Assembly: GCA_008330645.1 (NCBI GenBank)
Contig: VLTN01000002.1
Location: forward strand, 930,001 to 994,000
DNA length: 64,000 bases
Direction: 5' to 3'
From: Cafeteria roenbergensis
Taxonomy: Eukaryota > Sar > Bigyra > Bicosoecida > Cafeteriaceae
This document shows positions 4,693-49,254 of this stretch, piece after piece. Under the pieces are notes generated by a model, which was not told the DNA's origin, ran no database searches, and saw only the letters and a program-made list of their open reading frames with translations. A program made the translations under genes and the position numbers. The stretch's first letter is position 1; the number at the start of each line of letters is the position of its first letter.

Positions 4693-4850
4693 ATGATGAA
4701 AGTAGGTAATTTTGAGGATGTGTAGCTAAGGCAAGAGCGCACCGCAAGCGTTGCGCGGTCCTGGCCCGAGTCACTTTTGTCCCGGCCCCGTCGCAGCGCG
4801 CAAGGCTGCTGTCAGCACAGACAGTCTTCACGTGCTACCTGGCCTTTGCA

Positions 4851-7301: not shown

Positions 7302-10300
7302 ATGCGCTGCGCTTCGGCTCTTTTCGTCGCCGCCATGGCCGCCTACACGGCCATGGCAGCGCCTTCCACGTCCTCCTTCACCCCAGCCAACGGCGCCACC
7401 TCTGTCCACCCCCTGGCCACTGTGGCAGTCACGTTTGACACCGCCGTCGACGCCGGGCACGCGAAGCTCATTCGCCTGCACCGCAAGGACTCCGGACACG
7501 TGCTGAGCACCGTGGCTGCCGCCTCGTCGTGGGTCACCATCGACGGCGCGACCGCCACGGTTGCCTTCCCCGTCTCGCATGTACTTTCAGGCGAGGTTTA
7601 CGTCACGATTGAGGCTGGTGCCTTCGTGTCCACTGCAGACGAGTCGCCGTTTGCAGGAATTTCTGACAAGTCTTGGTCGTTCGCATTCCAGGGTGAGCCG
7701 ACGCGCCTTCTGTCCGCCTCCGCGCCGCCTCCCCGACGAGCCTCGTGCGCGATGCCGGCCGCCTGGCTGCTGGCATGGCGGCTGCTTTGGCCGCGCGCGC
7801 CTTGCGAGGCGTCCGCCGGCGTCCGTTGGCGACAGGCTGCCAAGATCGAATGGCGACGCGTGGCTGCCGGTGGCCCCGGCGAAGCGCAACTCGGGCGCGC
7901 GCTTCGGCCACCCTTGAGAGTGGCATTGCGGACCGGCTGCGCGTGCTGGGCTTGCCTGCCGCCGTCCCACGGCCTCGGCGGGGCACCGCTGCCGACCAGG
8001 GCGTCGCCACGTCGCCCTGTCGAAGGGCCCAGTGTTCCATCCGCCGAGCAACTTCGACCGCGCGCTTCCTCACGTGATTCTTTCGATTTTCGCTCCATTT
8101 GCAGGTGATCTTGGCTGCGTCGCCCAAGTCCGCGGCAAGGACGAGATGCAGGCGCAGGCCGGCCTCTACTCGGTCAAGCTCAGCTTGTCTGACTCGGCCA
8201 CCACGTTCTGCGACATGCGCGCAGACGGTGAGTCGCCCGGCCTCGGCCTTTGCGTTGTCCTGTGGCATTGAGGCGCCCCACTCGCCTTCCCTGCGTGTGT
8301 GTCACGCTGGAATGCGATTTTCGCTCCCCTTCGCCCCCCCGGCGCGTCCGCGCAGGTGCCTACACCCTGATCGGCTACACCGACTCGGCCATGGGCGGCG
8401 ACCTGACGTCCGCGCGCGGCACGTTCAACGCCAGCATGCGCACCGGGTCCGCCACCGTGGGCGACGCCCGCAACCTGGTTCGCGCCTCGAGCGCGCTCGC
8501 CTTCTCGCTGTCGGCCACCTCGGCCAACAGCGCCTCGTCCGCCATGGGCGGCGGCGTGTCCGACTACTCGCACGCCTTCCGCATGAGCATCCCCAAGCCC
8601 GGCGCCCAGCAGCTGACGCTGTCGGCCACGTGCTCGGCCAACGCCGCGGAGAACGACTCGGACCGCGCTGGCAACGACCTCATGTCCGTCGCCTTCCCCT
8701 CGGACCACAGCGACCCTGCTGGCGCCTGCGCTGCCTCGTGCTGCGGGCACGCGCAGTGCGCTGCGTGGTCCATGTCCACCCGTGAGGACTCGCCCTTTGG
8801 CGCGTGCAAGGTCGGCGACAGGTGCTGCTACCTCAAGAGCACCGCCGGCTCCCCAAGCTACAACGCCGGCGGCAAGTCCGGCACCGTGACGCGCACCAAC
8901 AAGGACTGCTCCGACGCCTCCTTCGCCCCCACCACGGTGGACTGCCTGCCCGGCGCGGACGCCGACCAGTGCGGCGCCGTGTCGCTGCCCCCGCGCATGC
9001 TCACCGGGGCCACAACCATGGCTGTGGCCGGCGGCACCTCCTACGGCGCCGTGGCCCGCGTGTCGGACGCCTCGGCCGCCACCTGCAGCGTGGGCCCGCT
9101 CGGCCTGGACGGCTACGCGGCCCTCATGCTGCGCGCCGACGGCTCGTCCACCCTGCGCTCCGCCATCAGCCCCGCCGGCGGCGGGGGCAGCGCGGCCACC
9201 GTCAACGCCCAGTCGGCCGCGGTGTGGGCCTTCACGGAGCGCCGCTACAAGTCCTGCGCCGACGCGCTGAGCACGGTCCGCTCCGGCGACCTGCTCGGCT
9301 GGTGGTCCATGGCCTCCACCCGCGCCGGGGACGGCAAGATCCGCGACCTGTCGGGCAACGGCCGCGACCTCGTGCCCGCGGACATGGCCCGCACCGCCTC
9401 TGGCGGCCTGGGCGCTCTGTCCCTTGACGGCGCAGCCAGCCGCGCGGACGGCGCGGCCGGCTCCGGCCCCGAGGCCCTCCGCGGCGACAAGGCGTCCACC
9501 GTGTGCGCGTGGGTGCGCTGGGAGGCGTCGTCCTGGGGCACCGCGGCCGCGCCCATCTTCTCGTTCAGCAGCCCGCGCACCGCGCGCACCAACCAGGGCT
9601 TCAGCTTCGTTGCCCCGGGCGGCAGGCCCGGCCTCGGCTTCCAGGGCGTGCGCGTGCTGACGCGCGACTCCGTCCTGTCCCCGCTCACGTGGCACCACGT
9701 GTGCGCGTCCCGCACCGGCTCCGGCGCCAAGCTGGCCAACACTCGCGTGTGGGTGGACGGCGCCATGGTGTCGGCCCTCAAGCTCGACTCGGACGCGGCC
9801 ATCGCGGGCTCGCCGGACGAGACCGCCGCCGTCGACGTGATTCCGGCCCCCGTGGCCGTTGGCGTGCTGGCCAACGCGGCCACCGGCACGGCGGCCTACT
9901 GGAACGGGTTCGTGCGCGACGTGCGCCTGTACTCGCGGTCCCTGTCCACGGCGGAGGTGCGCGACGTGATGACCTTCGACGGCGTGTCCGCCACCGTGAT
10001 GGCCTCCGCCGTGTCGGCCGAGCGCCAGCTCATCGGCGAGTGGGACTTCGACGCCACTGGCGCCACTGATTCCCCTGCTTCAGCCGCCGTCCGCGACGTG
10101 GTTGGCAGCAACGACTGCACGCTCGAGGGCACGGCCAAGGTGGCGGACGGTGCGCTGGTGCTGGACGGGCAAGGCCACGCCAAGTGCGGGGCTGTGCCCA
10201 AGTCGCTGAACTCCTACTCGCTCGAGGTGACCCTGACGCTCTCCGACCTGGTGCAGCGCGGCGGCGGCGCAATGACAATCTCCAACGGCGCGAGCGAGTC

Positions 10301-13300
10301 CGCTTTCGACTCGCTGGTGTACGGCGAGTCCCGCTCCGGCGAGTGGATCGACGGCTCGGACCAGGCGCAGCGCACTTCCAACCTGCAGCCGCCGCCCGAG
10401 ACGGCCTCCCCCACGGACGTGATCCACATGGTGATGACGGTGGCCTCCAACGGCGTCCGCTCCATCTACCGCAACGGCGCCCGCATCACGCAGCACACTG
10501 CCAGCCTTCAGACGTATGCGGCTGGCACTTCCGCCGTGCTCTTCGGCTGCCGCCACGAGGACTGCTCGGCCACGGGCACGGTGACCACACGGCGGCTCAA
10601 GGGCCGCATCCTGCACGCCCGGCTCTACCAGTCGGCGCTCTCGGAGGCCGAGGTGCGCGCCGTGTACGCGACCGGGACCAAGGGCGTGGCGCGCGTGCCC
10701 CCCTCGATGCGGTCGGGCGAGCGCACGCTGGTGCTCCCGCCCGGCGACTCCACCCCTGTGACCGTGACGGCCAAGTGCGACATGGACGCGATGGGGGGCG
10801 GCTGGACCCGCTTCTGGTGGGTCGGCCCCGAGCAGACCTCCTGGCCCTCTGGCGAGAGCGACGTGCTGGGCGGCACCTTCGGCTCCTGCTCCGCCGACGC
10901 CAAGTACTGCTTCGCCAAGATGCCCTCGGACATCCGCGAGGACCGCGCGCAGCTGCTGGCCCGCGACTCCACGGGCACCGCGTACGTGTGGGACTTTGAC
11001 CCCGACAACGAGGTGGCCCATGCGGCCTGGGAGGCGTTCAGCCAGGGCAAGGAAACCGTGTTCGATGGCACCAGCGGCACCGACACCTGGAACCCGTCAG
11101 CCGTCCTTGGCGGCACGTTCCACGGCCGCGACCAGAAGTACTTCATGTACCGCTTCGAGAACGGCGTGCGATCCTTCCTGCTCGACGACGACCAGTGCTC
11201 GTGCTTCAGCACGCTCGAGGCCGGCTTCACGCTGTGCCAGGGATCCTCGGACCCCACCAAGGTTGCAAGCTCCCTCGGCGTGGACAAGCTCAACGGCGAG
11301 GGCTGCACCAGCCCCGGCTTCTCCACCAGCGTGGAGCTCTTCGTGCGCGAGCGGCCCTCCACCGAGTCGGCCGCCGTGGGCGTGCAGCGGGCCGTCGTGT
11401 TCGTGCGCGAGTCTGAGCCCGTGGTCCGCATCCCCGTGGAGCGCACTGGCCCGCTCTCCGACGCGGCCGCCGTCTCGTACATGACCATGGACGGCACCGG
11501 CGTGGCCGGCACCAACTACGTGGCCGCCCGCGGCCGCGTGGCGTGGGCCGCCGGCGAGGGCGGCTCCAAGTCGATCATCGTTCCCATCATGCTCGACTCT
11601 GGGATTGGCGCCTCGGACAAGACCTTCTCCTTGAAGCTGCTCGCGCCCGAGCACGCCTCTCTCTCCACTGCAGCTGACGAGACCAGCGTCACCATCCGCG
11701 TGGAGCGCACCGGCGTGTCCGGCACCCCCGGCCCGCTGTCCTTCAAGCAGGAGGGCGGCTCGACGGACGTGCAGCTGAACATCGCGGCCAAGTCAAAGGG
11801 CGGCATTGCCTTCTCGTCCGGCGCAGACACGTCAGTGGGTTCGTGGTTCTCCGAGGCTAACGCCATCGACGGCGACTACGGCCAGCTGCAGGCGTTCCGC
11901 CCCGACGCGGCCGCGCCCCTCGCAGGTGCCGGCTCCACCGCGTCCCCTAACATGCCGTTCATTGGCGTCAGCTTCCCGGCGCGCATTCTCGTGGACCACG
12001 TGGCCTTTGGGCGGGACAACACTGGCGTGCACGCCAACCACTGGCGCGGCCAGGTGGCGGTGGAGGTGACCACGGTCCCAGCCCCGGACGCCAGCACGCT
12101 GCAGTCGGACTGGACCCTCGTGGACACCGTCACGATGACCACGCCACTGCGCCGCCTGTACGCATTCAACTCCCCCACCGAGGCCACGGCCCTGCGGCTG
12201 CGCCTGATCAACTCCACCAGCGAGGTGATCATCATCGACGAGCTCGAGGTGTACCAGGCGGGCGCGGTGCCCAGCCTGACCTCCGACATGCTGGCCCAGT
12301 ACACGTTCGAGGCCGCCACTGTGTCCGACCCCTCCAAGGTGGTGGACACGTCAGGCAACGGCAACGACGCCCTGGTGAACGGCCTGGTGACCTTCGGCAT
12401 GGAGGGCTCCTTCGCGGCCGCCCGCTTCCCGAAGCGCGCCTCTGACACGGCCGTGCCCGCGTACCTCGAGGTGCCGGCGCTGAAGAACTTCGAGTGGGAC
12501 CAGGCCTTCACCGCCTCGGTGCTCGTGAAGCGCGTGGGCGCTGGCGGGTTCGCTGGCGTGCTCGGCAACGGCCGCGGCGTCGACGGCTCGTTCGAGATCC
12601 GCATGACCCCGTCCAACGGCGGCCAGGAGGTGGGCGTGAGCGTGAACACCGTTGGCGGGCACAACTCGGGCGAGTTCGTGCTTCGCGGCCAGGCCGTCCC
12701 CGTGGGCGACTGGCACCACATCGTGCTGACGTACGGCGACAACGCCACGTCGCTCTGGATCGACGGCGAGGAGCTGATCAAGTCCGTGTCCGGCACCGTG
12801 GTGCGCGTGGACCAGCCGCTCTTCATCGGAGTGTCGGGCAACCCCAACAAGCCCGCTGGCTCGCGGCCCTCAGACTCGTTGCCCGCATCTGCGGCGGAGG
12901 GCCTCGACGGCTTTGTGCACGATGTGCGCATCTACAACAAGACCTTCACTGGCGTGGACGTGGCCGAGCTGTGGCGTGGCTTCGAGCGGACCATCAAGCG
13001 CGAGGGCCTCGCAGCCTGGTGGCGCCTGGCCGAGTCCAGCGGCTCCGTGATCGTCGATGACTCCGGCAAGAGCGTGACCGGCGCCACGTCGCAGTCCGGC
13101 ACCAGCTGGGGCGAGGGCGGCCTCATGCTTGACGGCACTGCGGGGCGCGCCTCGTCCTCCAGCGCCCTTGCGACGCTGCATGGCGACGCCTCCTTCAGTG
13201 TCTGCGCCTGGGTGTATCCCAGCCGCGATGCCTACTCCACGGACTTGGACAACGTAGAGTACGTTGTGGGCCTTGACGGCTCTGGCACGGACACCTGGTT

Positions 13301-16300
13301 CGCGCTCGCGCTCCGCCGCGGCGTGCCCACGCTTGAATTCGGCGGCAAGACCCGCGTCGAGCATCAGAGCGGCACGAAGCTGCCCCTGAGCCAGTGGAGC
13401 CACGTGTGCTTCTCCAAGTCGCCGGGAACCAAGACTGGCACCGGCGGTGCATCGAGCCCCACGCAGCTCTTCGTCAACGGCATGGAGGTTGCCACCCGGC
13501 TCTCCTACGCAGCCCTGGACGGCGTGACGTTTGAGCAGGCCAACACTGCCCCCAACCTCGCGGCCACAAACATGCTAACCGTCGGCGCCATCGGCGGCGC
13601 TGGGTTCTTCAAGGGCGTTGTGGCGGACGTCCGCGTCTTCTCGCTGGCCGTCTCCCTGCGCCAGGCATCCGCTGCCTTCAACGGCGGCCGAGTGCTGGCC
13701 TGGGGCATGCACGAGGGCCAGGGCGAGTCCGTGTACAGCGCCGACGGCGAGGCCACCGGCGTGGCCGGCGCCCTCTCTGGCTCGACCTGGAGCTGGAGCG
13801 GCACCCTCCTGTCCTTCGCCAAACGCGGAGACGGCATCCAGAGCGCCGGCTCGTCCGTGGGCGTCCGTGGCGATGCCGCTCTGTCTGTGTGCGCCTGGGT
13901 GTTCTACACGCCCAAGACTTGGCCGACCGCCTCGGCGGCCACCGGGTCTAACGGCGTCGTCGAGATCGCTGGCTTCGCGCCCGCCGTCGTCTCCGGCGGC
14001 AGCGGCGGGTCCACCGCCGCAAGCATGACGACTCCCAACACCGGATTTGTGCTCTCGGTCGTGAACGGCCTGCCCGCCGTCGACTTTGGCGGCGGCGTGT
14101 TCGTGATTGCGGACGGCGCCGCGTCGGTGAGCCCAAGGCGCTGGTCGCAGGTTTGCGCGGTCAAGTCTCCCGGTGCCAAGTCGACGACCACGAAGTTGTA
14201 CATCGACGGCTCGCTCGTGCCCACGAAGCTCTCAGACATGAGCGGCGTCGAGGGCGGCCTGAGCAGCGCGGTGCTCGACGCCCGGCCAAACATCCAGTCT
14301 GCACCGCTGCGGGTGGCAACCGTGACCCCGAAGGACTCCCTCACCGCCACGATGCGCCCCTCCTTCGTCGGCGTGGTGGACACGGTCAGCCTGTACCGCC
14401 TCGCCCTGGACCAGGCGGGTGTGAGCGCCATCAACTTCGCGTCCAAGTTCGACCACGTCCGCGACTACGCGCTCTCCCTTCACGGCACCGATGAGCACGC
14501 CACTCTCTCGCCTTTCCTGCTCGGAGGTGGCGACGTCACCATTGAGATGTGGGCCTTCTGCCAGGACACGTCCAAGTTCTCGCAGACGCTCTTCGACTTT
14601 GGCAACTCGCCCTCCAGCTCCCGCATCACCGCGTACCTGGCCCCCGAGTACCCGTACAAGCTCCGCGTCTCGGTGCAAAACTCCGCAACGGAAGGAGAGT
14701 CGATGATTGAGACCAACGCGGGCTTCTCGCGCGGCCGCTGGCTGCACGTGGCCTACACGCAGTCGGGCACCACGGGCACCATCTTCCTGGACGGCAAGCC
14801 CGTGCGCTCCGGCACCATGCCGCAGCTGGCGTCGGCCGTGCGCGCCAAGATGCTCCTCGGCAAGTCCATCAGCCCGAGCCAGTCGAGCTTCTACGGCAAG
14901 CTGGACGAGGTGCGCATCTGGTCCGTGGCCCGGACGGCGGCGGAGATCACCGCGGGCATCGCCTTCTTCCCCTTCCCGACGCTCGCCCAGGCGGACGAGA
15001 TGAAGCTGCAGGCGTACATCCCCTTCGACATCATCTTCTCCAGCCCGCACCACGACGAGGTCCTGCTGCAGGGCGCCTCGCCGGCCAAGGACCAGTCCGG
15101 CCACGGCCGCGATGCTACTGTCGTTTGCGAAGACCCCGACGCCGCGTCCTCCGGCGGGTCCTCCTCCGCTCTTCCGGCCGGGCTCCTTGCCCGCACCTGC
15201 GTGGTGGCCTCGCCGCGCTCCGCGACCCGCTCGCTCTGCAACAACGGCTTCCGCGAGGTCGGAGAGGAGTGCGACGACGGCAACACCGTGTCTGGCGACG
15301 GCTGCAGCAGCACGTGCAGCATCGAGTCCGGGTGGGTGTGCGAGCACGAGGACTTCAGCGCTGCGGATGTCTGCGTGGAGGGCACGATCATCGCCATGGA
15401 CGGCTTTGAGAGCGCCGGGAACCCCGCTGGCATGCCCACGGCCCCCGTGTGGAGCCCGTCGCGCGGACACCAGGGCACTTGGACCCTGGGCGGCGCGTAC
15501 GCCTACAGTGGCAGCAGCGGCCTGCGCATCGTGCAGAAGGACTCGTCCACGAGCGCGACGGCGTGGATCACCTTTGGCCAGACCGTGGTTTCGGGTATCA
15601 AGCCGGGCGTCTTCCTGAAGCTCCGCTACAACGTGCGCAAGGCCGACTTCACCAGTGCTGCGGCCCCTCTGGTCGTGCAGCTCACTGACGGGTCCCAGAA
15701 CCCCGCTCCCTCGTCGTGCCTCTCTGCGGACGGCTGCGGCTCTTCGCACGTGTACAGCATCTGCATCAACGCGGGTGCTCTCAGCGGGTGCGACGAGAAG
15801 ATTGCCAACACGGCCATGGCGTGGAAGGCTCTCACTGCCGAGGTGGCCCAGAAGTTCACGGCCAAGTACGGACGCGATGCGGCGCCGTCGAGCGTCCGCG
15901 TTCGGCTCATGGGCGTCGCAGATGACACCGAGACTGAGGTGTGGCTGGACGAGTTCCGAGTGGTTAGCATTGCCAACGTCGAGTCCTGCGGCCGCATCGC
16001 CGCCGTGTCCGCGGGCGCTGGCTCCGGCTCCAGCTCCAGTGGCGGCTATTCGCCGCGGGGCTTCGTCCGCTTCCCGGAAATCGACACCACCAACTCGAAC
16101 ATCTTCCCCAACTGGAACACCGAGTTCACCGACTTCCCGACGGAGCAGTTCACCGTATCGTTCTGGGCCAAGGGCAAGGGCTACTACCACTCCGACAGCA
16201 GTAACAGCTACTACACCCAGTTCTTCCACCTCAAGGGCGAGAACAACTTCCAAATCGCCGCGTTGTACGCGTACACCGACGACCTCTCCCCGACGGTCAT

Positions 16301-19300
16301 GGACTACAGCATCGGAACTTCCTACAACCTTTGGCAGTCCACTTCAACTACGAGCGTCCCAACATGGACGCACATTGCAATGACTTTCTCCACTAAGGAG
16401 AGCTCGTGTTCCGGGAGCGCGAGGCTCTATGTGGATGGCAGTCTGAAGGCCAGCCGCTGCACCAACAGGGGGGCATCCACGTCGACCAAGGTTCGTCTCC
16501 TGCTCAACGGTCGGTTCACCTCTTCGACCTACTCTGACGACCGTGTGTACTACTACTACACCGACACTACGGGCATGTCCATGACGGACTTTGCCATTTT
16601 CAACAAGGCGCTCGATGGCTCGGCGATCTCGGCGCTGGCAGCTGGCTCGCCCTCTGAAAGCGATCCTGCGCTGTACGCCTTGTTCAGTGGCTCCAGCGCG
16701 GTAACGACCGACGGCCGGACGTTTGAGTACTGGAACGACACCATCAGCGGGAGGCAAGTGAAGGACACCCGGTCGACGTACGTGACTGAGGCTTTCGACC
16801 TGTTCCACCCCAAGGAGGGAACTCTTGCGGAGCCTCCACGCGGCGCGACAGGAAAGAGCAACCGCTTCACCAAGATGATCGCCTTCCCCAAGTCTAGCAG
16901 CCGGTACGGGTACGCCTACTGCTACAACGGCAACTTCGGCAGCATGGTGCCGTCCAGTGGGCGCGGTTTCCACATCGCCTTTTGGACGAGGTTCGGCCCC
17001 ACCTCGGAAAGCGGCCGCACTGCCTCGTACCACGTTCTTGGGAGCGCGTATTACAGCTACAACGCTCGCTTCTACGCGTACAAGACGTCCGGAACCAGCA
17101 AGAACTTCTACTTTATGCTGGGTGATCGTTCCGGGACCATGTACAACGGCTGGCAGTTCGACGCCCAGTGGCATCTCTACACAATCGAGTATGCTCACTC
17201 GACCCGGTGCTCGAGCACAAGCTACTGGGCTTCGAGGGCAGCTTTGGACAAGGGCACGGATGTGACGCCGCAAGTTTCCTGCTCGTACTCCAGCTACTAC
17301 AGGTGGACGTTCTCCTATTACTACGACATGGCGATTGGGCGGCTCCTCAGCTCCTCCTACTACAACTCGTACTCGTCAAGCTCGTCGAACCTGTTCATCG
17401 ACATCGCCCACTTTGCAATGTACCAGGGAACCACAAGCTCGTCGTCGAACTACCACTTCACCGACACGGAGCTGGCAACCTTGTTCGATGCCGAGAACCT
17501 GCCAGCCTCCGTCGGCTCAAAGTCTCGCACCCACCTCTTCGGGTACCTCACCACCGACACGGCCTCAGTGGCCAAGTCCTCGACGCGCGGCTCGCTGTAC
17601 TCCTCGGACGAGATCTACTATCTGCGGAGCCACGAGTCTTCGTCTTCCACCTACTATTTCTACTGCGGCTCGTCGAGCTCTTCGAACCATGGCCGGCCCA
17701 AGTACATTGATGATGGCGGTGACGAGGATGGTGGCGACGCTGGAAAGCGTCCGTTTGGGGGCTTCTTCCCGCACTGGGACATTCGCAACGACGAGGGGCT
17801 TTCGTACCTTGTGTCCGAGACTGCGGGCGCTGTGACGAACTGGCCAACCGGTGACTTCAGCGTCAGCCTCTGGGTGCGGATGACAGAGGGCATGGCTCAG
17901 GGAACCAGCACGCACGCGACGTTGGTGTCCTACGCTTCGGCGACTGCCACGCCCGCGTTTGAGCTTCGCGTGGCCAAGAGCGAGACCGGGCCGCTGACGA
18001 TCGTCCTTGAAGGCTCAACTCTGTCCGTGCCCGAGGTGTCGACGGGAGCGCTTGCCGGAGGCTTGTGGCGCCACCTTGTGGTGACGCGTGCGATGGCGTC
18101 GGGCGAGGTCACAGTGTTCATGGAGAAGAACATGACAAGCGCGGGCGCGCTTGCCGCTGGCTCGGCGACGGCTTCGGGCGCTGGCTGCCTCGTCGTCGGC
18201 GCCGGCCAATCCGGCTCTCCGTGCTCGGGCATGGACGCCTCCACCGGATTCCGCGGCAACATCGCCCAGCTCAGCATCTGGTCGCGCGTGCTGTCTGCAA
18301 GCGATGTGGCAGACCTCTGGCTGGCAACGCCCTCCACGTTCCAGTCTGGGCTCGAGATCTCGCTGAACGCTGGCATGAGGACAGGCGACAAGAAGTGGCT
18401 GGACGCGCGCACGTTCACGGAAGGTGCGCCCGCCCTTGTCCCTATGGGCGCTGCCGCGCCGGTGTGGAAGGAGGGCTCGACGACTGGCCAGATTGCTGTT
18501 TGCGCCTATAACACATACCAGGCGTATGGCAGCTACGCTAGCTTCATGTCGCTGTCCGGAAAGGTGCACTCCGCGCAAGTTTCCACGTACATGTACGTCT
18601 ACACGTTCCCTTCGGGCCAAATGGACGACTCCTTCACCTTCGACACCTACTACACCTACCGGACATACTCCAACTCGGCCATTGAGAACAAGATCAAGGA
18701 TGCGAGCGACGACGCGCTGATCATGATCATGTGCCCGTACAACGGGTGCTACCTGGGCGGCTCCGCCTCGTCAAACACCCTGTTCGGGGTCATGAAGAGG
18801 ATTGGTGCGACGGATGCAAACTTCCCGAACGACAACTCGCCGTACCTGCTCATTGGCCGCAAGGGCGACTCGGCAGCGCAAACGAACATCAAGGGCACGT
18901 TTGGGCAGTGCATCGTGGTCCCGCAGACCGACTTTAACAACCTGTACTCGTCCATCACGCTGGAGACAGCGGACGGCAACGTGACGGAGGCGTCGGCCAA
19001 GCAGCCGGGACTGAACTTGGCGCTGCTTGACGAGCGTAAGCGCATTGTCGTTGCGCAGGGCTCGTTCTCGTTGAACGTGGCAGGCATGCAAGGCAGGGCT
19101 GGGCTTGCCAAGTTCCTCAACGACGCTCCCGAGAGCGCTGTGCTGGTCGGCGTTGTCCAGTCGCCGTTTGGGGGCGAGCTGACAACCTCCACGAAGGACG
19201 CTCTGTCGGGAACCTTTGGCGTGAAGCTTCCCTCGCGAACGTCGCTCGGAATGTCCTGGGTGTTCCTGGGGTTGAAGAACGCGCCGCGGTCCTCGATGCC

Positions 19301-22300: not shown

Positions 22301-25300
22301 CTTGCCCCTGGGAGATCCGGCGCGCTGTGACGTCGCCGTGTCTCGCCAGAGGCAGGACACTGACCTCCAGGGCGTGCCACCATTCTCGGCTGACCCGACC
22401 CTGGGCAACCTGACGATGCGCGACAACTCAATGCTCGACTTCGAGACCGACCCCGTGGTCATGCTGTACATCCGGGCTCGCGACACCGGCACGCCTCCCG
22501 TGTCGCAGCACGTCGCGATCAAGGTGCACCTCATCGACGAAAACGACGCGCCTGTGGTGACCTGCCCGACTGGCAATGACGAGAGCAACCGTACCACCGT
22601 CTTCGGTACCCTGACAATTGCTGGCAAGCCGTACAGTGCCTGCCGCACGTTCAAGATGGCCGAGGACGCGGCGGTGGGGTACAAGTTCCCTGGCTTCAAG
22701 CTCACGGGGTCTGACGAAGACGGTGACCCAGTGAACTTCCAGGTTGTGCAGGGCGTCATTGGCGGCGACGAGGCGCTGCCCGCCGGCTACTCCGACGGGT
22801 CCGCGCTCTTTGAAGCAAAGAACTCTGTTGCTGGCGGGTTCCAGCCTGGAGAGCTGGCCGTGAAGGTGGCCGGCAAGTTCGACTTCGAGACCAGGCCCCG
22901 CGTGGCGCTGCTGGTGCGCGCATATGACGTGCCCCGCAACACGGCGTGGTCGTCGAACATGTCCGAGCCGGAGCTCGTCATCGTGGAGCTCACCGACGTG
23001 GACGAGGCGCCGCAATGGCACACCGAAGCCGACGGCAAGGTGCACCGCTTCGTGGCGGAGAACTTTGGCCCTGGCGCGCACGTTGGAAAGGCCCTTCCTG
23101 CCTTCGACCCGGAAGGCGGGTCCGTCACCTTCACGCTGGACGACAGGACCGACCTGTTCGAGGTGAACTCCTCGACCGGCCAGCTGTCTCTCAAGACAGC
23201 CCTGCCCGGCTCTGCGAGCGTCGGCGACACTTTCGAGCTCGACTTTACTCTGTCCGACGGACGCCTCTCGGATCAGTTCGTGGACATCGTCGTCGTGAAG
23301 GTGGTGCCACCCAACAACCCGCCCGTGGTCTCGGACCAGTCGGCCAGCGTTGCGGAAAACAGCCCTGCCGGCACCACGTTCGGCAGCATGCTCACCGCCT
23401 CTGCTGGCGACGCCGGCCAGACCGTGTCGTTCGAGATCGAGTCCAGCGTTCCGGCGTGGGGCGTGGATGCGATCCAGGTGTCCGCCGCGGGGCAGCTGTC
23501 GGTCAAGTCGGACATCCTCGACTTTGAGAACACGACCACGATCACGCTGTCCGCCTACGCCGTGGACGACGACCCTGCCGCCCCCGCCTACACTCCCTTC
23601 ACCATCACGGTGACTGTGACCGACGCCGACGACATGCCCGAGTGCGTGTCCACTGGCCTGACCGTCAGCGAGACTGTCCCTCTGAACGCCAGTCTGAACA
23701 TCGGCGTCATCTTCTGCGCAGACCAGGACCGCGATTCCTTCACGATCGGTGTGCCGGAGGCCCTCGTCGGTAAGTTCTCAGTGGTGAACCAGTCTGGCCC
23801 GCCGGCTGGCTTCGCCTCCCTCGACGGTTGGCTCACAACGTCGTCGAATGAGACGGATTCAGCGACCCTTGCGCTGCGAGATGCTGCCCTGAGCTTCCTG
23901 CTCCGTCACGGAGCCAACGATATCCACCAGCTCTCGGTGTTCGCGTTCGACCAGGCCACTGACCTGATGGACTACGAGAGCAAGACGGCGATGCCGCCGC
24001 ACACGTACCAGCTTGCCATTGAGCGCAGGGACGCCCTCACCCGGCAGGCGGACATGCTTGTGATGCTGGAGGATGCCAACGAGCCGCCCACCATCGTGAC
24101 GCAAGGCTTTACGGTGGCCGAGAACGCGTCCATTGGCTTCGTTGTGGGCACCGTCGAGGCATTCGACCAGGACGTCAACGACACCATCTCCATCTCGGTG
24201 GAGAACACCGACGGCAAGTCCAAGTTCGTGTTCGACGAGGCGACGAATGAGATCCGCGTGAGCGGGGCGCTCGACTACGAGCTGGCCTGGAGCTTCGACA
24301 TCACCATCCTGGCCAAGGAGACGACGGAGACTCGGCCTCTCGGTCAGCGGCTGGAGACCCGTACATCTGTGCCTGTGACGCTGACGGACGTGAACGACCT
24401 CAAGATCGACGGCGTCTCCGGCGACATGCCCTTCGACACGCGCGGCGGTGGGAGGCTTGTGCTGACCGGCCGCAACTTCGGCTTCGCCAGCGGCGAGTTC
24501 AGCCCGTCCGTGGACGTGCGCTTCGGCACGGACGCTGACCCGCACAAGTTCCGCGCCACCGCCTGCTCGGTGAGCAAGCCCAACACGGAGATCACGTGCA
24601 CGATGCCCGAGGGCGCCGGGTCGGGCCTCAAGGTGTGGGCCAGCATCTCGGCCCCGACCGCGCCCAACGGCGGCTACACGCAGAGCGGCTGGGGTGCCAA
24701 CGGCGTGGTGATTGCCTATGCCCCGCCTTCGCTGAACAGCACCGCGCGCGTGGGCGCCGGCATGATGTACACCGACGGCGGCGACGAGTTCGAGGTCCGC
24801 GGCGACATGTTCGGCCCCGTGGGCACCAACGTGACCGTGGAGTACGGGATGGAGGGCGCCTCTGGCGGCGACGGTGAGGCAGGAGAGGCCACCGGATTCG
24901 AGGACGCGTCCACGTTCCGCTTCCAGGCAACGGAGTGCAGCGTGGTCGAGGCGCACGTGGCCATCCGCTGCAAGTCCGCGGCGGGCGTGGGCAGCGGCTT
25001 CGCGGTCCGCGCCAACGCGGCGGGGCAGGACAGCGGGTCGCTGCCGAACGCGCTCTCGTACGATGCCCCCGTGATCACGGGCGTGGAGCTGTACAGCAGC
25101 GCCTCCGCGAGCGGCGACATGCTGCCGGCGCTGAACACGCGCGGCGGAGAGTTCTTCGTGGTGCGCGGGCGCAACCTGGGCTTCTTCGCGGCCACTGGCA
25201 ACGGCGGCGGCGCTCGTAGCGCCCCGTCTGAGGACTGCATGGCGGCAGGCTTCTCCGGGCGCTGCAGCCGCGTGCTGAACAACCACGACAGCGACGAGAG

Positions 25301-28300
25301 CAACGACATCGATTCCTTCCCCTACTCCGTGGCGGTGTGGTACGGCTTCCCGCAGGCCCCCCGCGACGCCGAGGCCGACGCGCTGCGCCCGCCCATCGTG
25401 GTGGCCGCCGAGATCGCGTCGCAGGACCAGCAGCGCCGTCTCTTCCGGCCCACGTGCCAGGTGCTGGAGGCCCACCGCGCCCTCATCTGCAAGGCCGTTC
25501 CCGGCTACGGCGGCAGCCTCGTGCCTGTGGTGCGCGTCGCGGGCCTCGAGTCGGTGTCCGTGGCCCCCACGGCTGTGGTTCCGGCGTCGGCGATGTCCTA
25601 CACGGTGCCCACGGTGGTGGACGTGACCGGCGACGGCTCCTTCAACGCCCTGACCAAGGGCAACCAGGAGGTGTTCCTGGCCGGCGACTTCTTCGGCCTG
25701 ATGCAGCACAACGCCGTCACCAAGGTGACCTACGGCCCGACGGGCACGGAGTACACCGCGGCGTCGTGCCTCGTGACGGCTGACAACATCCAGGTGACCT
25801 GCCGCACCGCGCCGGGCGTGGGCCAGTTCCTTCAGTGGCGCATCCAGATCGGGAACCAGTGGAGCCCGCTCGCCGGCAACACGTCTTACGCGCCGCCCGT
25901 CATTTCCTACTTCTCGGGCGACGGCTCCTCCAGCGCGCAGACCGTGGGTGGCGAGGACGTGTTCGTGCGTGGCGACAACTTCGGCTTCGAGGACAGCAAG
26001 GTGGACTTCGTGGTGTACCGCATCGTCGGCTTCGAGCGCGACGTGCGGTTCGAGGCGGCCAACTGCTTCATCTTCACGGCGCACACGATGCTCAAGTGCC
26101 GCACCGCGCCGGGCGCAGGCAAGGTCCTCGAGTGGCAGGTGTCCATCGCCGGGCAGACGTCGGTGGACCCCGTGACCGGGTACGGCCGCCCCCTGATCGA
26201 GGCGGTGGGCGCCCCGGGCGGAGCCGCGTACGCGCAGAGCCTGTCGACGGACGGCGGCGAGACGATCGAGCTCAGCGGCGCCAACCTGGGCCCCTCGGCG
26301 GACCCCGGGCCCTTCCTGGACTGGGTGCGCTACGGCCCGACCGGCGGGGAGTACATGGCGACGAACTGCAGCCTGGACGGCGCGGGCCACGTCAAGCTGA
26401 CGTGCCGTACCGCTGCAGGCGTGGGCGGCCCGCACGTGTGGAAGGTGAGCGTGGCGGGCTTCGTCTCCGAGATCTCGCCGCTCGTGGGCGGCGTGACCAG
26501 CTACGCAGCTCCCGCCATCTCCCTGCTCCAGGCCAGCGCTGGCTCCGACGCGCCCGTCCCGACGATGGGCGGCACAATGATGACGCTGGTGGGCACCGAC
26601 TTCGGCCTGCGCGACCCGACCGTGACGGTCAAGGTCGAGATGGTGCTGTCGGGCTCCCAGGGCTCGCGCACCATCTCCATCGAGCCCGAGACGCCGACGC
26701 CCGATGCTGGCGCGGACATCGCGCAGGCGATCGCTGGCTCCAGCTTCGCGGCAGCTGGCTTCGCGGGGCCGTTGGAGGTTGTGCCCGGCAAGGGCTGGAC
26801 GACGCGCCGCGGCGCGCCCGGCCACAGCAACGGCCGGCCACTGCAGGCGCTCAAGTTCCGCATCCCGGCAGGCTTCGGCAAGGACGTCCCCGTGCGCGTG
26901 GTGATCCGCTCGACCGCGCCCCTCGACCCGTCGGCCCCTGGCGCGTCCGGCAGCCCGGTGACGATCCGCTCGAGCGCCGCCACCTTCTCGTACGACGCGC
27001 CGGACATCTGGTACGTCAACCCGCGCCTGGCCACGGAGCCCCAGTGGGACGGCTGGTACCAGCTGGACATCATCGGCGAGAACCTGTGCAACGGCGAGCT
27101 CGGCTGCATCGTGGTGAGCGTGAGCGACCGCACGAACACGTCTGCCTTCGGCACCATCGGGTTCGTGAACGACATCAGCGTGGGCCAGAACACCATGCGC
27201 GACGCCGAGAGGCACGACCGCGTGACCATCTTCGTGACGAACAAGCAGGGCGCAGTGCGCATCTCGATCGGCAACCAGAACACCATCGTCAAGGCCTTCT
27301 CCAGGCTGGCACCGGCGCTCGGCCGCGAGCAGGCGTACAGCTCCGAGACCTTTGCTTCCGACGGCTCGGGCGCAACCATCTCGCTGCGCGGCTGCAACTG
27401 GGTGCGCGGCGAGACGCTCGTCAAGGTGGGCGGCTACGACTGCGTGATCCAGTCCTTCACCGACCCCACCAACCAGGCAGAGGACCCCGGGTGCAGCCGC
27501 GAGGAGTCGCAGGCGACCATCGTGTGCGCCCTTCCCGCCGGCGTGGGCAAGGAGAACGCTGTGACCGTGCTGATCCAGTCCGGCGACGGCGACACGCTGT
27601 CCTCGGACGGCGGTTCCAGCCCGACCCCCACCCCGTCGCCGACCCCCGCTGCCGTGTCCCCGTCTTCCTCGCCGGCAGCTGCGGCGTCGGCCTCGCCCTC
27701 TCCCTCGCCGGCGGTTGCTGCGTCTGCGTCGGCCTCGCCGGCTGCCGCTGCGTCGGCGTCTGTCTCGCCGGCAGCTGCTGCGTCGGTGTCGGCCACGCCA
27801 TCCGTCGCCGCCTCCCCTGCGGCGTCCACCAACTCGACTCGTCGCATGCTTGCGGCAGCAGCGCCAGTTGCCGTGGCGGCAGCAGCCCCGGCGGGCCTGC
27901 CGGCCGCAGCAGCGCCCGTCCGCGTGGCCGCCCCGTCTCGCCCCCGCATGCTGCAGGCCTCTCCCACCCCGTTCCCGGCCTCGGACGTGACGCCCGCGCC
28001 CCAGTTCGAGCCGGCCTCGTACTCGGACCAGAACGTCGTGCCCCAGGCCGCGGCGTGCTCTTCCAACTGCATTGAGTTCCGCGCCCCCGTGATCACCAGC
28101 ATTTCGATGCGCGACGGTATCGCGGCGGACCGCGCTGCTGACGGAGGGGAGCGCGAGCTGGTCGCGCTCATCGTCGAAGGCACTCCCTCGGTGTCGATCG
28201 AGCTGCCCACCCACGCGTCGGTGCTCGTGTTCAAGGGCACGGACTTCGGCCTTCGCGGCATGGTGGTGCTCCGGCCGCGCGTTGGCTCCAGCGCCTCGCC

Positions 28301-31300
28301 CATCATCGTGTACCCCGACCCCGCGGCGGGCGACTGGACATCCACGCAGGTGACGGCCCGTCTCCCGGGCAGCGAGGGCCACGGGTGGACCGTGGAGCTC
28401 TGGCAGGGCGTGACCGTTGCGGACGCCAACCGCGGCCCGCAGATGCAGTCCTCGCCCGCGACCATCAGCCTCAGCTACCGCTACCCCACGGTCTCGCTCG
28501 CCACCCCGCTCACCATCGGCACTGCTGGCGGCGAGGTCGTGACGGTTGTGGGGCGGAACTTCGGCGTGAGCGGCCCCAGCCTCTTTGTGCGCTACCCGGG
28601 CAGCTCTTGGGTGCCAGCGCCCCTCGCGATTGCCGACTTCACGTCTTCGGCCGACTTCGGGCACACGCACGCCCGCTTCGTGGCGCCGGAGGGCCAGGGC
28701 GCCGCAGCCGATGTGGAGCTGATGGTCGAGGTGGACGGCCGCCAGATGCCGCTCGCCCTCCGCGGCGTGTTCGGCTACCGCGCCCCCCGCCTGCAGTCGG
28801 TGTGGCCTCGCTCTGCGCCCACGGAGGGCGGCACGGACGTGGTCATCCGCGGCACGGATCTCGGCCGGTTCGGCGACCTGCTGCTGGAGTGGCAGGGCGA
28901 CTTCGGGGCCACGCAGCAGACGAACTGGACCGTGCTGTCGCACAACCACACCGTCATGGTGGCCCGCGTCCGCGCCGGCGCCGGCGTGAACCGGTTCCTG
29001 AAGGCCAGCATCTCGGGGCAGACGAACCCCGACTCGGACCTGCTGTGGAGCTTCTCTCCCCCGCGCATCGACGACATCTCGCCGCGCAGCGGCCCCACGG
29101 TGCCCGATGTGCGCAAGGGCGACGAGACCAGGCTGACCGTGACCGGGTCGTCCTTCGGCGTGCGCGGCGGCAGGCTGACCATCGACGGCAAGCTGTGCGA
29201 GATTGTGTCCCACACCCACACGCAGATCGTGTGCGAGATCCCCAGCGGCATGTTCGCGGAACGCGTGGTGCGCTTCCAGAACGACGACTCGGTGCCGTCC
29301 GGCGTGTCCAACGCGGCCTTCTACCGCGACGCCCGGTGGTCCACGACCAACGCGTCCTTCTCGTACGACCCGCCTGTGGTCACCGGCGTGGACCCCAGCC
29401 GCGCTGATGCCGAGGGCGAGCCGCGCCTTGTCATCTACGGCCGCAACTTCGGCCCGTTCCAGACCGAGGCCGCCGTCAAGATCGGCGCCAAGGTGTGCGT
29501 CAACGCGTCCTGGACGAGCGACGAGCAGATCAGCTGCGCCATGATGCGGGACCGCGCTGGCCGCAAGAACCTGACCGTGGACGTGGCCGGACAGCGCAGC
29601 TACTTCTCCGAAATCGACTTCCGCGTGCGCGTGACGCTGGTGTGCCAGACCTCGTGGTACGGCATGCCGGGAGAGTACTGCCTCAAGTGCCCCGTGGGCG
29701 CCCTTTGCGACCGCGACGAGATCTACACGCCCGTGTCGGAGCCTGGCTTCTGGCGCTTCGACCTGCCAAACGCGCGCCCCAACGCGAGCGCGCAGGCGGA
29801 GAAGGACGCCGGCAAGGAGGTGAGCGACGACTCCCTCTGGGTGTACGACGTGAACGGCGGCAAGGGCAACGAGAACTGCCCCGCTGAGCGCCGCACCACG
29901 CGGCCGTCGTGCCAGGTGTACCTGCCGTGCCAGCCCGCCAAGTCCTGCATCGGCGACAACACGTGCGCTCCCGGCTACACGTCCGAGCGCTGCGCCTTCT
30001 GCGCCAAGGGCTACTACCGCCTGGACGGCGAGTGCGAGGTGTGCCCGGAGAACCCGGAGCTGATCATCCTCGGCTTCATCGGCCTCGGCATCGTCGGCGT
30101 CGCCGCGGCCTACATGGCCCAGCGCAGCAACATCAGCATGTCCATCGGCATCATCGCCGTGGACTTCTTCCAGGTGCTGGCCATCTTCGCGCGCAGCAAG
30201 GTCAACTGGCCCGAGCCCCTCCGCGTGCTCTTCCGCATCCTGTCCGCGTTCAACCTCAACCTTGAGCTCACGGCCCCCGAGTGCCTGGTGGAGAGCTTCG
30301 GCGCCGTGGAGCGCTTCATGGGCACGCTGCTCATCCCGGTCATCGCCGGCAGCATCTTCCTGCTGATCCACCTCGTGAAGCTGGCGTACAAGGTGTGCGT
30401 GAAGCGCGTGGACAAGGAGGCCCGCAACGCGCACCTCCCGACCATGATCGCGGCCTTCATCGCCATGTTCTACTTCCTCTACCTCTTCCTCTCCCGCACC
30501 GTCTTCGAGGTGTTCAACTGCGCGCCGACGGACCCGTCCGACGGCAAGACGTACCTGCAGATGGTGTTCGAGGAGTGCGGCCTGCCCGGCGGCGTCCAGG
30601 AGACGCTCATGCCGTGGGCCGTGCTGGCGCTCATCTTCTACGTGATCGGCTTCCCGATCGTGTCCGGCTACTTCCTGTACAAGCACAAGAACGACATCAA
30701 GAAGGACCAGCTCCTGTACCTGGTGAAGCTGCCCGAGGGCAAGGAGGAGTACGAGCGCGCCGCCCGCGAGCTCAAGGTGTACCGCCTGCGCAAGTACATG
30801 GGCCGCCTGTACCAGTTCTTCGTGCCGGGCAAGGTCTACTGGGTCGAGGTCATCCTTGCTCGCAAGTTCCTCATCGCCATCTCGACGCTGCTGTTCCAGC
30901 AGACGCCCACCTTCCAGTTCGCCATGATGCTGCTGGTGCTCTTCGGCGCCTACGCGCTCCACGTGAAGAACGTGCCGTACCTCAACGCCACCGAGCGCGA
31001 CGACATTCTCGCCAAGTGGCGCGACGAGAAGGGCTCCGCCAAGCAGGAGGAGATCAAGCGCCTGGTTGCCGGCGCCAACCGCAAGGCGACGCGCCGCAGC
31101 TCCATGGCGGCCGAGCGGCCCAAGTCGATGGTGCAGCACACCACGATGGAGGTGCAGAAGTACATCTACAACTACAACACCATCGAGGCGGTGCTGCTCT
31201 TCGTGGCCGTGCTCACCTGCCTCTCCGGCATCATGCTCAACTCGTCCCGGTTCGAGTCCGCCTACTACGCCTCGCAGCGCGACACCATCACCGGCCTCAT

Positions 31301-32033
31301 CATCGCCATCATCACCATCACGCTGCTGTACGTCTTCTCCGTGGTCGTGTTCGAGGTGATCAAGGTGGTGCGCCCCGAGCTGTGCGGCGCAACCGCCATC
31401 CCCAAGAAGGGCAAGAAGGGCGCCGCTGGCAAGGGCGCCGCAGCTGGCGGTAAGGTCTCGCTCGAGGCCGACACCGAGGACAAGATGGACATCATGGCCA
31501 ACCCCATGCACGAGGACAGCACCGCCACCGATGGCGTCTCCCTCGAGTCCATCACCTCGCTCAGGGCCGGCACCGTTACGCAGGAGCAGCTCGACACTCT
31601 TGGCCGCGCCTATGCCGGCCTCCTGGACCGGTACAAGATGCTGGAGAAGCAGACCAGCGATGGCGAGGCAGGCGTTGACGGCGCGGCCTCTCCGGGTGGC
31701 ACGCTCGGCACCTCGCGCAAGCGCATGTCTCGTATGAGCATGGCAAAGGGCAAGACCGGCGGCCGCAACGAGTTCGCCCCGGCAATGGCCTCACCGGCTG
31801 GCTCCGGCGGGTCGAGCGGCGGCGCAGCGGCGGCCAACGCGTCTGGGCTGTACCTCAACCCGACGGCGCGCAAGTCCGTGCGTCGCTCCAGGTCCAAGTC
31901 GACCTTGCTTCGGTCCCCGGGTTCCGGAAAGTCTCCGACTGCCGTTGAGTCCCCACTCCATGTGGCAGGCGACAGCGCTGACGTCCCCGACATGGCCCTT
32001 GGCAAGGGCGCCGGGGCCACGAAGAAGCAGTGA
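7302..32033 (+). CDS. Giant modular multi-pass surface protein, about 8063 aa (LamG/cadherin/IPT-TIG)
   Basis: Exons 7302-7692, 8105-8227 and 8356-32033; both introns (412 and 128 bp) are GTGAG..GCAG, phase 1, and restore one frame. The ATG at 7302 starts a signal peptide (MRCASALFVAAMAAYTAMA). In order, with rough residues: SbsA-type Ig-like domain 22-130; CDM-containing fibrinogen-like start 160-210; Cys-rich PAN-like segment 267-340; LamG-like domains 483-943; fibrinogen-like module with GGGWTRFWW 950-1173; Calx-beta 1180-1287; F5/8C-like 1317-1473; LamG-like series 1483-2373; DUF4215 Cys motif ECDDGNTVSGDGC near 2475; more LamG-like domains to about 3500; a repeated unnamed module to 4320; ten cadherin-type repeats 4327-5520; about fourteen IPT/TIG repeats 5520-7260 split by an Ala/Ser/Pro linker; Cys-rich stalk 7265-7405; 8-9 membrane helices 7406-7843; cytoplasmic tail. 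A role as adhesion molecule or receptor is inferred from architecture only. Confidence 0.9.
9289..18340 (+). other. LamG/concanavalin-like array of the giant protein, with inserted modules
   Basis: About nine concanavalin-type units recur. Typical units open with a phrase such as LLGWWSMASTRAG or GLAAWWRLAES, continue with DxSGNGxD (or a variant), a core like CAWVYPS or VTIEMWAF, then WxHVxxS, an xVDGxxV strand and a closing VRxYSxxLS-type strand. Rough starts are 9289, 10020, 12290, 13000, 13690, 14460, 16050, 16890 and 17760. Fibrinogen-like (10690-11360), Calx-beta (11380-11700), F5/8C-like (11790-12260), DUF4215 (15235-15380) and a possible MAM-like unit (15395-15990) interrupt the array. 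Such domains commonly bind glycans or other surface ligands. Domain borders are by eye. Confidence 0.75.
19617..20770 (+). other. Three copies of an unnamed ~120-aa module in the giant protein
   Basis: Two copies are clear: one centred on HGLGKMPDRLRVLIRSEE (about 20035-20400) and one on HGLAALPERVDVAVRTSS (about 20405-20765). Each starts with a Trp-containing segment (SGWSSM, SDWMRM), then HGL-x-x-x-P-x-R-V/L, and ends in a strand like VRVQAW or VKVRAW. A weaker third copy opens with ELDHGFNVDPAGLEVFPEM (about 19617-20010). H-type-lectin-like beta sandwiches have a similar layout, but I cannot name the family with confidence. Confidence 0.55.
20820..24400 (+). other. Ten cadherin-type repeats of the giant protein
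   Basis: Each repeat is about 100-150 residues and ends with a calcium-linker motif: DVNEAP, DNNDAP, NINDPP, DENDAP, DVDEAP, PPNNPP, DADDMP, DANEPP and DVNDL are seen. Internal motifs LDYETR, LDFETD, FDFETR and LDFENT correspond to the cadherin LDxE strand, and AxDxD motifs precede them. These repeats normally rigidify in calcium and mediate adhesion outside the cell. The first repeat ends in an atypical VANRNSAP linker. Confidence 0.85.
24400..29620 (+). other. About fourteen IPT/TIG Ig-like repeats of the giant protein
   Basis: The recurring pattern is a hydrophobic strand, a proline/glycine turn with GG, then xVxGxNFG: examples are GGRLVLTGRNFGFASG, GGEDVFVRGDNFGFED, GGEVVTVVGRNFGVSG and PRLVIYGRNFGPFQ. 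Most repeats also carry a Cys pair such as ATACSV..ITCTMP or AASCLV..VTCRTAP and a GxG turn (AGSG, PGVG). This is the IPT/TIG fold seen in plexins, Met-type receptors and bacterial surface proteins. Repeats start near 24400, 24725, 25070, 25610, 25896, 26190, 26515, 27000 (degenerate), 27310, 28085, 28480, 28785, 29060 and 29370. Confidence 0.85.
27605..27835 (+). repeat. Ala/Ser/Pro low-complexity linker repeat
   Basis: Short imperfect tandem repeats rich in GCGTCGGCCTCGCCG-like units encode a Pro-Ser-Ala linker (SPTPTPSPTP, then ASASPSPSPAV). It separates TIG repeats 9 and 10 and is probably a flexible, possibly O-glycosylated hinge. Unequal exchange here could change its length between strains. 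Confidence 0.8.
29635..32030 (+). other. Cys-rich stalk, multi-pass membrane domain and cytoplasmic tail of the giant protein
   Basis: After the last TIG repeat comes a Cys-rich ephrin-receptor/GCC-like stalk (YGMPGEYCLKCPVGALC, later CAFCAKGYYRLDGECEVC). Hydrophobic helices follow at about 30057-30120, 30133-30192, 30328-30395, 30441-30513, 30606-30681, 30870-30960 (one or two), 31190-31235 and 31288-31360. The phrase DFFQVLAIFARSKVNWP is of the kind found in large protist surface proteins with the same stalk. The tail is Lys/Gly/Ser-rich with a short coiled coil (AYAGLLDRYKMLEK). No kinase or known channel-pore motif was seen. Confidence 0.75.
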
Positions 32034-33371: not shown

Positions 33372-33684
33372 TGGTCCTGGCCTGCGGCGAAGGCAGCGAC
33401 CGCTCGCCGGGCAACTGCCCGCGCGGTGCGAATCCGTGGCAGTCGGTGCAACCCTGGCAAGCTGTGCAGAGCTGTGATTGCTTGGGCCAACTGCTACGGA
33501 GCCAACAGCGTGTGTTCCGCATCCCAACCGCTGGCGGTCGAAGCCACTGGTTCGGCTCGGGGCCTAGCGAAGTGAAGGTTGCTCGGTTGAGCAGGCCGAT
33601 TTCGGCTCGCCACGGCCTGGAGGTCACGGCGCTGGGGGTAGCCGCAAGCACCTGCCGCGTGCAGCGGTTGCCCCGCCCATAGGA
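33372..33684. promoter_or_regulatory. Putative bidirectional promoter region, 313 bp
   Basis: Separates divergent starts at 33371 (-) and 33685 (+). No TATA box is evident. Position is the only evidence. Confidence 0.35.
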
Positions 33685-38293: not shown

Positions 38294-38498
38294 CGCGCGT
38301 CCCGAGGAGCCGGCCCGTCGGACCGGAGTGGGGTCCGCGGGCCGCCGCGCGATTGGAGTCAGCTCCATTTCGCTTGCCGGAGCGTGGAATTTCGTCCCGC
38401 AGGGCGGCTCTGCCGGCCCGGGGCTCGCAGGCGGCGGGCGATCTCCGACGTCCCGGGCGCCAACTTGCACCCAGACTCGAGGGTCGGAGCCAGGCAAT
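38294..38498. promoter_or_regulatory. Putative bidirectional CSN4/AP3B promoter, 205 bp
   Basis: The ATGs of two well-identified genes, 38293 (-) and 38499 (+), lie 205 bp apart. The short distance leaves room for one shared promoter. No TATA box is seen. Confidence 0.45.
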
Positions 38499-43168: not shown

Positions 43169-43291
43169 GTTTGTTCCATTCGGCGATTCAACTGACCCGT
43201 CGCCTCGGCAGAGCCACGCCCTGCCGATGGCATCATCGATGTTACGTACATTCAGCAAAACGTGGACACGCGATACTCCCCGCAGCGGTGG

Positions 43292-43882
43292 TCAGTGCCT
43301 CGCCGTGCCGCATCCAGTGCAATAGCGGCCCGTGGGCTCAAATCGAGTGCCACACTCTGGGCAGAAGCGCCACGCTGCCGACTCGACCGTTCCGCAGGGT
43401 GCTGGGGTCTGCGCCGGCGCTGCGTCATCGCTGCAGTGCGGGTCCGCCGCTTCAGCACCGCGCTGCGCTGCTGGCGCGGGTGGTGGACCAGCAAGCGGTG
43501 CCGAATGCTGGTTCTTTGCCTCCCGAGCCCTGTGATAAAAGTCCATCTCCTCCACCTCGCGCCACCCTTCGCTGCGGACACAGTCCCAGCGGTGGAATCC
43601 CAGAGCAACCGCAACAGAGCACTCGTGGACGAGTGGGCGGGCAAGGCACCGCACAACGTTGCAACGCAGGCAGACTGCTGGCGTTCGCGGCCGCTGCAGT
43701 CACACTCACGACAGCAGCGCGGCTGCTTGCTCCCTGGGCGCCGATCTGGCGTCTTCGAAGCGCAGTCGCGAGTAAATGGCCATCTCGGCCGCCTTTGACT
43801 CGCTGGGGCACTTGCGCGCCGATCGCAGGCAAGCCCTGTACAGACTGAGCGCTTCAGCCGACGGCCTGGTCGCTTTGCGCAT
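43292..43882 (-). CDS. LYR-motif protein fused to a C-terminal zinc ribbon, 150 aa
   Basis: Exons 43882-43710 and 43571-43292; the 138-bp intron is GTGAG..GCAG, phase 2. The spliced start is MRKATRPSAEALSLYRACLR; LYR followed by basic helices (SARKCPSESKAAEMAIYSRL, RFEDARSAP) and then LLSEGWREVEEMDFYHRA matches the three-helix Complex1_LYR fold. LYR proteins normally bind acyl carrier protein and assist Fe-S or respiratory-complex assembly in mitochondria. After a Pro/Ala/Gln linker comes CPECGTRFEPTGRYCTGCG, a CxxC..CxxC zinc ribbon that LYR proteins usually lack. No strong mitochondrial presequence is visible at this start. The fusion depends on the single intron, whose phase and borders fit. 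Confidence 0.72.

Positions 43883-44173: not shown

Positions 44174-44210
<37 letters not shown>

Positions 44211-49161: not shown

Positions 49162-49254
<93 letters not shown>

Follow-up and report, generated by a model that had tools for sequence, protein, structure and literature searches.

What kind of gene stays nearly identical to its copies toward both ends while the stretch between them drifts far apart? The question is raised by a locus of Cafeteria roenbergensis, in a window of 64,000 nucleotides (assembly GCA_008330645.1, contig VLTN01000002.1, positions 930,001 to 994,000 of the forward strand; positions below are those of the window). Here a gene at 7302–32033 on the plus strand encodes a giant modular protein of ~8063 residues that is predicted to sit at the cell surface. 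Its long reading frame is continuous, it has copies elsewhere in the genome, and divergence among these copies forms a mosaic, with two near-identical arms on either side of a strongly diverged, lectin-like core. According to PMC7852580, strains of this kind have been renamed C. burkhardae, and four strains of the species have been sequenced (PMC6972860).

A giant reading frame and its copies

The open frame runs unbroken from 8232 to 32033 (plus strand, 7933 codons). GT/AG pairs enumerated within limited ranges yield two stop-free splicings among the combinations tried, the longer encoding 8063 amino acids and the other 8 residues fewer. In the longer, exon 1 (7302–7692), with a signal-like start and a bacterial Ig-like Big_5 domain (~7356–7682), is joined across a GT-AG intron (7693–8104) to exon 2 (8105–8227, placed by the splice enumeration), and across another (8228–8355) to exon 3 (8356–32033), i.e. 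23.7 kb that end at the stop codon, all on the plus strand. A sequence-only reading of this DNA had proposed three exons, ~8063 residues and an intronless last exon of 23.7 kb, and all three points hold. G+C at third codon positions (GC3) is 78–96% in 500-codon blocks of the gene, which fits a coding frame at the base composition of the window (~60–76% G+C in 2-kb steps).

We searched the genome assembly, 36.30 Mb in 167 contigs, for related loci. The gene frame aligns over ~7900 residues with two copies, on contigs C83 and C8, which hold full-length frames of 7959 and 7937 codons, respectively, and less extensively with copies on contigs C51 and C67. The ratio of nonsynonymous to synonymous divergence (dN/dS) between the window copy and each of these four is 0.28–0.40; because the alignment is colinear and dN/dS is in this range, we regard the frame as a single coding unit that evolves under purifying selection. 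An artefact, i.e. several genes taken for one or a chance frame in high-GC DNA, would be in line with the long shadow frames that occur here, for example 2643 antisense codons at 23859–31790 that overlap the gene and that we read as its shadow, and with interruptions in some copies. Specifically, the C51 frame is split into 6783 and 1007 codons by four single-base length differences, which could be assembly error or decay; the first piece of C67 is in a different frame from the rest, and C21 is likewise made up of pieces in different frames. Such interruptions, which also weigh against the receptor reading given below, reflect assembly error, introns or decay. Colinear conservation of 7933 codons at the dN/dS given above and the two full-length counterparts speak against an artefact, which is highly improbable, and the giant gene is confirmed as genuine and more than a chance frame.

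The region encoding the membrane anchor has at least 51 matches at at least 34 places, the window included (rows grouped by hand; the weakest matches have expect values, E, of ~1e-3, and match counts are lower bounds). Four other copies are 90–97% identical in this region, and the next long matches are at 35–40%, with short pieces up to 49%. DNA at 8400–13000 recurs with 91–95% identity at five other places, and that at 25950–29500 with 94–97% identity at four. The N-terminal arm is also present on C21 and C80, while the C67 copy starts within the core at a contig edge. Since the cores of C21 (in pieces) and C67 are 53–62% identical, these two are different genes. Close loci with a constant-variable-constant pattern thus number six or seven, depending on whether C80 and C67 belong to one gene. 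The sequence-only reading of a single giant modular surface protein with a multi-pass end is therefore supported, but as one of these close loci rather than as a lone unusual gene. The close loci belong to a larger group that shares the anchor; 42 of the 56 genome-wide LamG_3 matches fall in this group of loci (hand count). A second group (C95 twice, and C106) has membrane modules that are 96–98% identical, with similarity that stops ~260–330 bases downstream of the matched region.

A mosaic of divergence along exon 3

Exon 3 was aligned among the window copy, C83, C8, the first open part of C51 and the long frame of C67. Synonymous divergence (dS) is 0.073–0.115 in the N-terminal arm (residues 172–1750, 6 pairs; the constant segment, ~residues 173–1700, lies at 8358–12941 and is the one with 91–95% DNA identity elsewhere) and 0.049–0.099 in the C-terminal arm (24189–31091, residues 5450–7750, 10 pairs). 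In the core (15789–20741, residues 2650–4300) it rises to 0.88–1.63, with 42–64% amino acid identity (residues 2650–4150, 10 pairs). The cadherins are also diverged (residues 4200–5400, dS 0.29–1.28, dN/dS 0.17–0.26), as is the C-terminal tail (31377–32033, presumed cytoplasmic), which varies between copies with dS 0.65–1.93 and 39–74% identity (residues 7850–8063, 6 pairs). Such a roughly tenfold change of dS within one exon cannot be explained by protein constraint.

Outside exon 3, similarity is low. Exon 1 and intron 1 have diverged between copies (44–58% amino acid identity for exon 1, which was found in three copies), and high similarity starts only near the 3' end of intron 2, at 8327 for C51 and C83 and at 8351 for C8. 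The flanks compared (1.9–4.1 kb each, C67 without its upstream flank) share a single common match of 86 bases at E 1e-5, so the arms do not stem from a recent duplication that copied the locus as a whole.

We strongly infer that ectopic gene conversion has acted on both ends around the variable middle; the pattern looks like concerted evolution on two blocks of one exon that largely spares the block between. Copies on different contigs share stretches as long as 478 nt without a single difference. Informative sites in the quartet of window, C83, C51 and C8 support different pairings along the gene, with 37 sites for window plus C51 in the N-terminal arm (vs 20 and 15) and 223 for C83 plus C51 in the core (vs 166 and 149). 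When C67 replaces C51, the core favors window plus C67 (141 vs 120 and 65), and window plus C83 is favored in the cadherins (119/44/31), in the TIG repeats plus membrane module (50/25/19) and in the tail (20/17/11). GC3 is higher where silent divergence is lower (Spearman rho −0.89, 79 windows along the gene), which is the direction that GC-biased conversion would give; such windows are non-independent, so we do not rely on the p-value of this correlation.

Several observations weigh against this reading, or against selection for variety in the core. In the first quartet, window plus C83 is favored in 1700–2500 (44/28/22), in the cadherins (61/49/35) and in the TIG repeats (34/19/14), so that three of the five segments agree on one pairing, all as raw site counts that carry no significance value; the window and C83 copies also share an identical run of 313 nt within the cadherins. 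The edges of the blocks are unclean, with a diverged island at residues ~1750–1900 of the N-terminal part and intermediate divergence at 1900–2500. In the arms, which are rich in GC3, codon bias could depress dS, but hardly tenfold within one exon, and assembly polishing could have added slightly to their similarity. Finally, dN/dS stays below 1 for all pairs in all regions compared, which does not show selection for diversity. Among at most ~3900 window-pairs scanned, 17 have dN above dS with at least 6 nonsynonymous differences; since these are low-count or saturated, and uncorrected, they leave positive selection unsupported.

Module architecture and comparison with known receptors

Profile searches recover the LamG_3, Cadherin, TIG and Calx-beta families. 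The protein begins with a hydrophobic, signal-like start, in agreement with the signal peptide claimed earlier (this start and the membrane segments were called from hydropathy), followed by Big_5, found by Pfam in exon 1 and absent from the earlier list, and a weak PAN_4 under the cut-off. LamG_3 domains follow at 9477–9959 and 10170–10655, Calx-beta (also claimed earlier) at 11370–11696 (Pfam, E 1.6e-10), and further LamG_3 at 12459–12962, 13146–13658 and 14484–14948, the first four of these LamG_3 being found by Pfam in the genome-wide search and the last also by Pfam on the protein. About nine LamG-like domains had been proposed; the family holds, with a count of eight stretches by Pfam on the protein and seven in the genome-wide search. 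The N-terminal part closes with a Cys-rich repeat (15234–15341) that passes as myxo_disulf_rpt of NCBIfam (46.7 vs 20.8 bits), so that the repeat proposed as DUF4215 exists under another profile, DUF4215 itself being below its cut-off (22.8 vs 27 bits). A fibrinogen-like module, also proposed and placed ahead of Calx-beta, finds nothing in Pfam at E up to 1, and ficolins reach E 0.16 over just 34 residues. Nor does the proposed discoidin-like module, which would follow Calx-beta, have a Pfam match; against PDB, that stretch finds designed propellers only (26 residues, best E 0.0044), which we judged to be chance.

The core contains a LamG_3 (16128–16619) and a LamG_3/pentaxin-like domain (17835–18311), both by Pfam, and two ILEI-like domains, the first (18591–18869, E 1.1e-5) just below the Pfam cut-off when scanned alone (26.2 vs 27 bits) and the second (19008–19280) at E 5.5e-10. 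Three tandem modules of ~120–130 residues each end the core (19638–20768). Unit 2 is predicted to be a beta sandwich, units 2 and 3 have no Pfam match, and near unit 1 there is a cadherin match below the cut-off (E 0.057).

The cadherin array (20841–24383, residues 4334–5514) has seven stretches of PF00028 (E 5.5e-58), and regular expressions find LDxE-like calcium motifs at six places in it (including one FDFE) and DxNDxP-like motifs at five; a seventh LDxE-like match, FNEE at residue 4262, lies outside. The TIG array (24399–29624), with a Pro/Ser/Ala-rich linker and a tandem repeat at 27663–27799, has five stretches by Pfam. Both arrays had been proposed and are present, but the repeat numbers are less certain: iterated profiles built from the family's own domains give 10 cadherin stretches, the ten claimed, and 12 TIG stretches, short of the roughly fourteen claimed. 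Such counts are biased upward, because the window's own matches were fed back, and one of these cadherin stretches (residues 3844–3938) is doubtful, as it sits inside the lectin-like core. A Cys-rich, DUF7630-like segment under the cut-off (29922–30044) leads into the membrane module (30048–31376), where nine hydrophobic segments at residues 7403–7845 (overlapping rows merged) agree with the 8–9 helices expected; five weaker segments lie upstream of residue 7403, one of them the signal-like start.

Extracellular cadherin repeats by the PF00028 profile, together with calcium motifs of the LDRE-like and DxND-like kinds, place the protein in the cadherin superfamily, and it is filed among the modular adhesion receptors, a known kind. 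The earlier statement that it is unlike animal cadherins is wrong as worded. CELSR/Flamingo proteins also join a cadherin array and LamG domains to a multi-pass membrane end, which alone is thus not distinctive, and the C-terminal half of this protein finds its best PDB match in CELSR1. What is distinctive relative to CELSR is the TIG array, the Cys-rich, nine-segment anchor and a different module order; no EGF, GPS/GAIN or 7tm family is matched at E up to 1 in profile searches. As for a catenin-binding tail, no cadherin C-terminal family passes its cut-off (Cadherin_C_2 at E 0.46 in the window copy, and at best 0.091 in four of 12 members). Plexins and similar receptors have TIG in common with this protein, which differs from them by nine hydrophobic segments instead of a single span and by the lack of a Sema match at E up to 1; Tgr (tiger) proteins of Dictyostelium, considered below, have a single membrane span as well. 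Among stramenopiles, the oomycete Pythium ultimum has cadherin repeats with calcium motifs, in four cadherin genes whose description in the relevant part of PMC2926784 does not mention TIG or LamG arrays.

Other giant frames occur in the genome. Larger open frames with TIG or LamG matches include C8:604033 (16961 codons), C3:687783-712196 (13593 codons), C1:800995 (11064 codons, LamG match under the cut-off) and C10:653999-671410 (8336 codons), the last with several TIG repeats of equal score and regular spacing. When cadherin arrays on C23, C35, C59, C92, C95 and C106 are compared repeat by repeat, their scores are identical or nearly so, which suggests other homogenised giant genes. Within the window, 46243–49032 (+) encodes a Cdc48/p97-like ATPase (two AAA stretches and a borderline CDC48 domain 2), with an antisense frame at 45115–49695 (1526 codons) that is probably its shadow, and 56449–63096 (+, 2216 codons), with a Sec16 Sec23-binding domain, probably encodes a homologue of Sec16. 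Of 10 long window frames scanned, nine lack a Pfam match at E 0.001 (2215–3810, 4716–6662, 33568–36648, 37604–39178, 39255–41159 and 49847–52567 on the plus strand; 43255–44508, 53365–54432 and 54535–55857 on the minus strand), and some of these may each be the shadow of an opposite-strand gene.

Receptor function and its alternatives

LamG, pentaxin and ILEI modules are known as binding folds, which would place the choice of ligand in the core. On balance, we favor the view that the gene belongs to a small family that encodes giant adhesion or recognition receptors of the cell surface, with ends held by conversion and a diverged core. In such a receptor, a secreted N-terminal lectin-like arm and the variable core would stand atop a calcium-stiffened cadherin stalk and then a TIG stalk, carried by the Cys-rich, nine-segment membrane module with its tail. 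Inter-locus conversion would keep two parts near-identical, namely the initial ~1500 residues encoded by exon 3 and the third that holds the TIG repeats and the anchor, so that copies have the same architecture, and the core would have diverged into a distinct version per locus (two Pfam LamG_3, perhaps a third, two ILEI-like domains and three tandem beta modules). The copies would then probably be anchored and assembled alike but bind different ligands, for which glycans on bacterial prey or on surfaces encountered during starvation are the likeliest candidates. PMC7852580 reports that the genes upregulated by C. burkhardae E4-10 in stationary phase are enriched in laminin G and IPT domains, and names a cadherin gene among them.

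A strong rival, and a real possibility, is that the middle merely escaped conversion. Conversion needs similar sequence, and a middle that had drifted or been replaced past that threshold would now diverge freely in a plain structural adhesin, with no selection for variety. This agrees with a dN/dS below 1 throughout and with the divergence of exon 1, intron 1 and flanks; the cadherins and tail have also largely escaped conversion, so escape is not limited to the binding modules. What it explains less readily is that dN/dS is higher in the core (0.24–0.42) than in the neighboring cadherins, a difference whose bootstrap interval (300 resamplings) excludes zero in eight of the 10 pairs, touches it in C51–C67 and includes it in window–C67, although relaxed constraint might do likewise. 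A tethered channel or sensor, in which the stalk pulls on the nine-segment module as a channel or signaling unit, seems unlikely. The module is widespread, as noted above, and keeps many invariant residues across 12 aligned members, but no Pfam channel family passes (TRP, PF06011, reaches E 0.45 in one of the 12), and the best of seven PDB profile matches at E up to 10 covers 44 residues of a photosystem subunit at E 0.01, which we judged to be chance. The structure model of this module is poor (predicted local distance difference test score, pLDDT, of 40), a point that weighs against the receptor reading.

Adhesion and prey recognition, both raised by the sequence-only reading, stay plausible. 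Mating, which it also raised, or self/non-self recognition, with a locus or allele that sets cell type, is a rather improbable role, and one for which the gene may work by analogy with two known systems, with no claim of membership in either. According to the published descriptions, Tetrahymena MTA/MTB have a terminal exon common to all versions (Cys-rich, five transmembrane helices) and a type-specific extracellular region, and their shared exons show recombination and conversion (PMC3608545, PMC10901506); they differ in their size of 161–194 kDa and in a single locus with DNA joining, as opposed to dispersed loci and ~8000 residues here. Tgr proteins form a large transmembrane family with TIG domains, of which TgrB1 and TgrC1 are polymorphic, and the description in PMC12324515 does not mention cadherin or LamG modules. 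Against such a role, the members are spread over different contigs within one genome, where no switching array was seen, and the genome paper, where it treats the species, gives no known sexual cycle (PMC6972860).

A bolder version of the receptor reading, which we consider doubtful, is that this bacterivorous, free-living protist keeps a germline repertoire of giant constant-variable-constant receptors. Their ends would be kept by ectopic conversion and their lectin-like core selected for variety, deciding which prey, kin or virus-bearing surfaces are bound, with new combinations arising through conversion between loci.

To our knowledge, the gene-level basis of particle discrimination by bacterivorous flagellates is largely unknown. 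The layout found here, with near-identical ends and a far-drifted lectin-like middle, would suit receptors with a common anchor and different targets. A small set of such giant receptors, alike in anchor but each with its own lectin-like core, would provide named candidates for the recognition of prey and surfaces in a culturable species.

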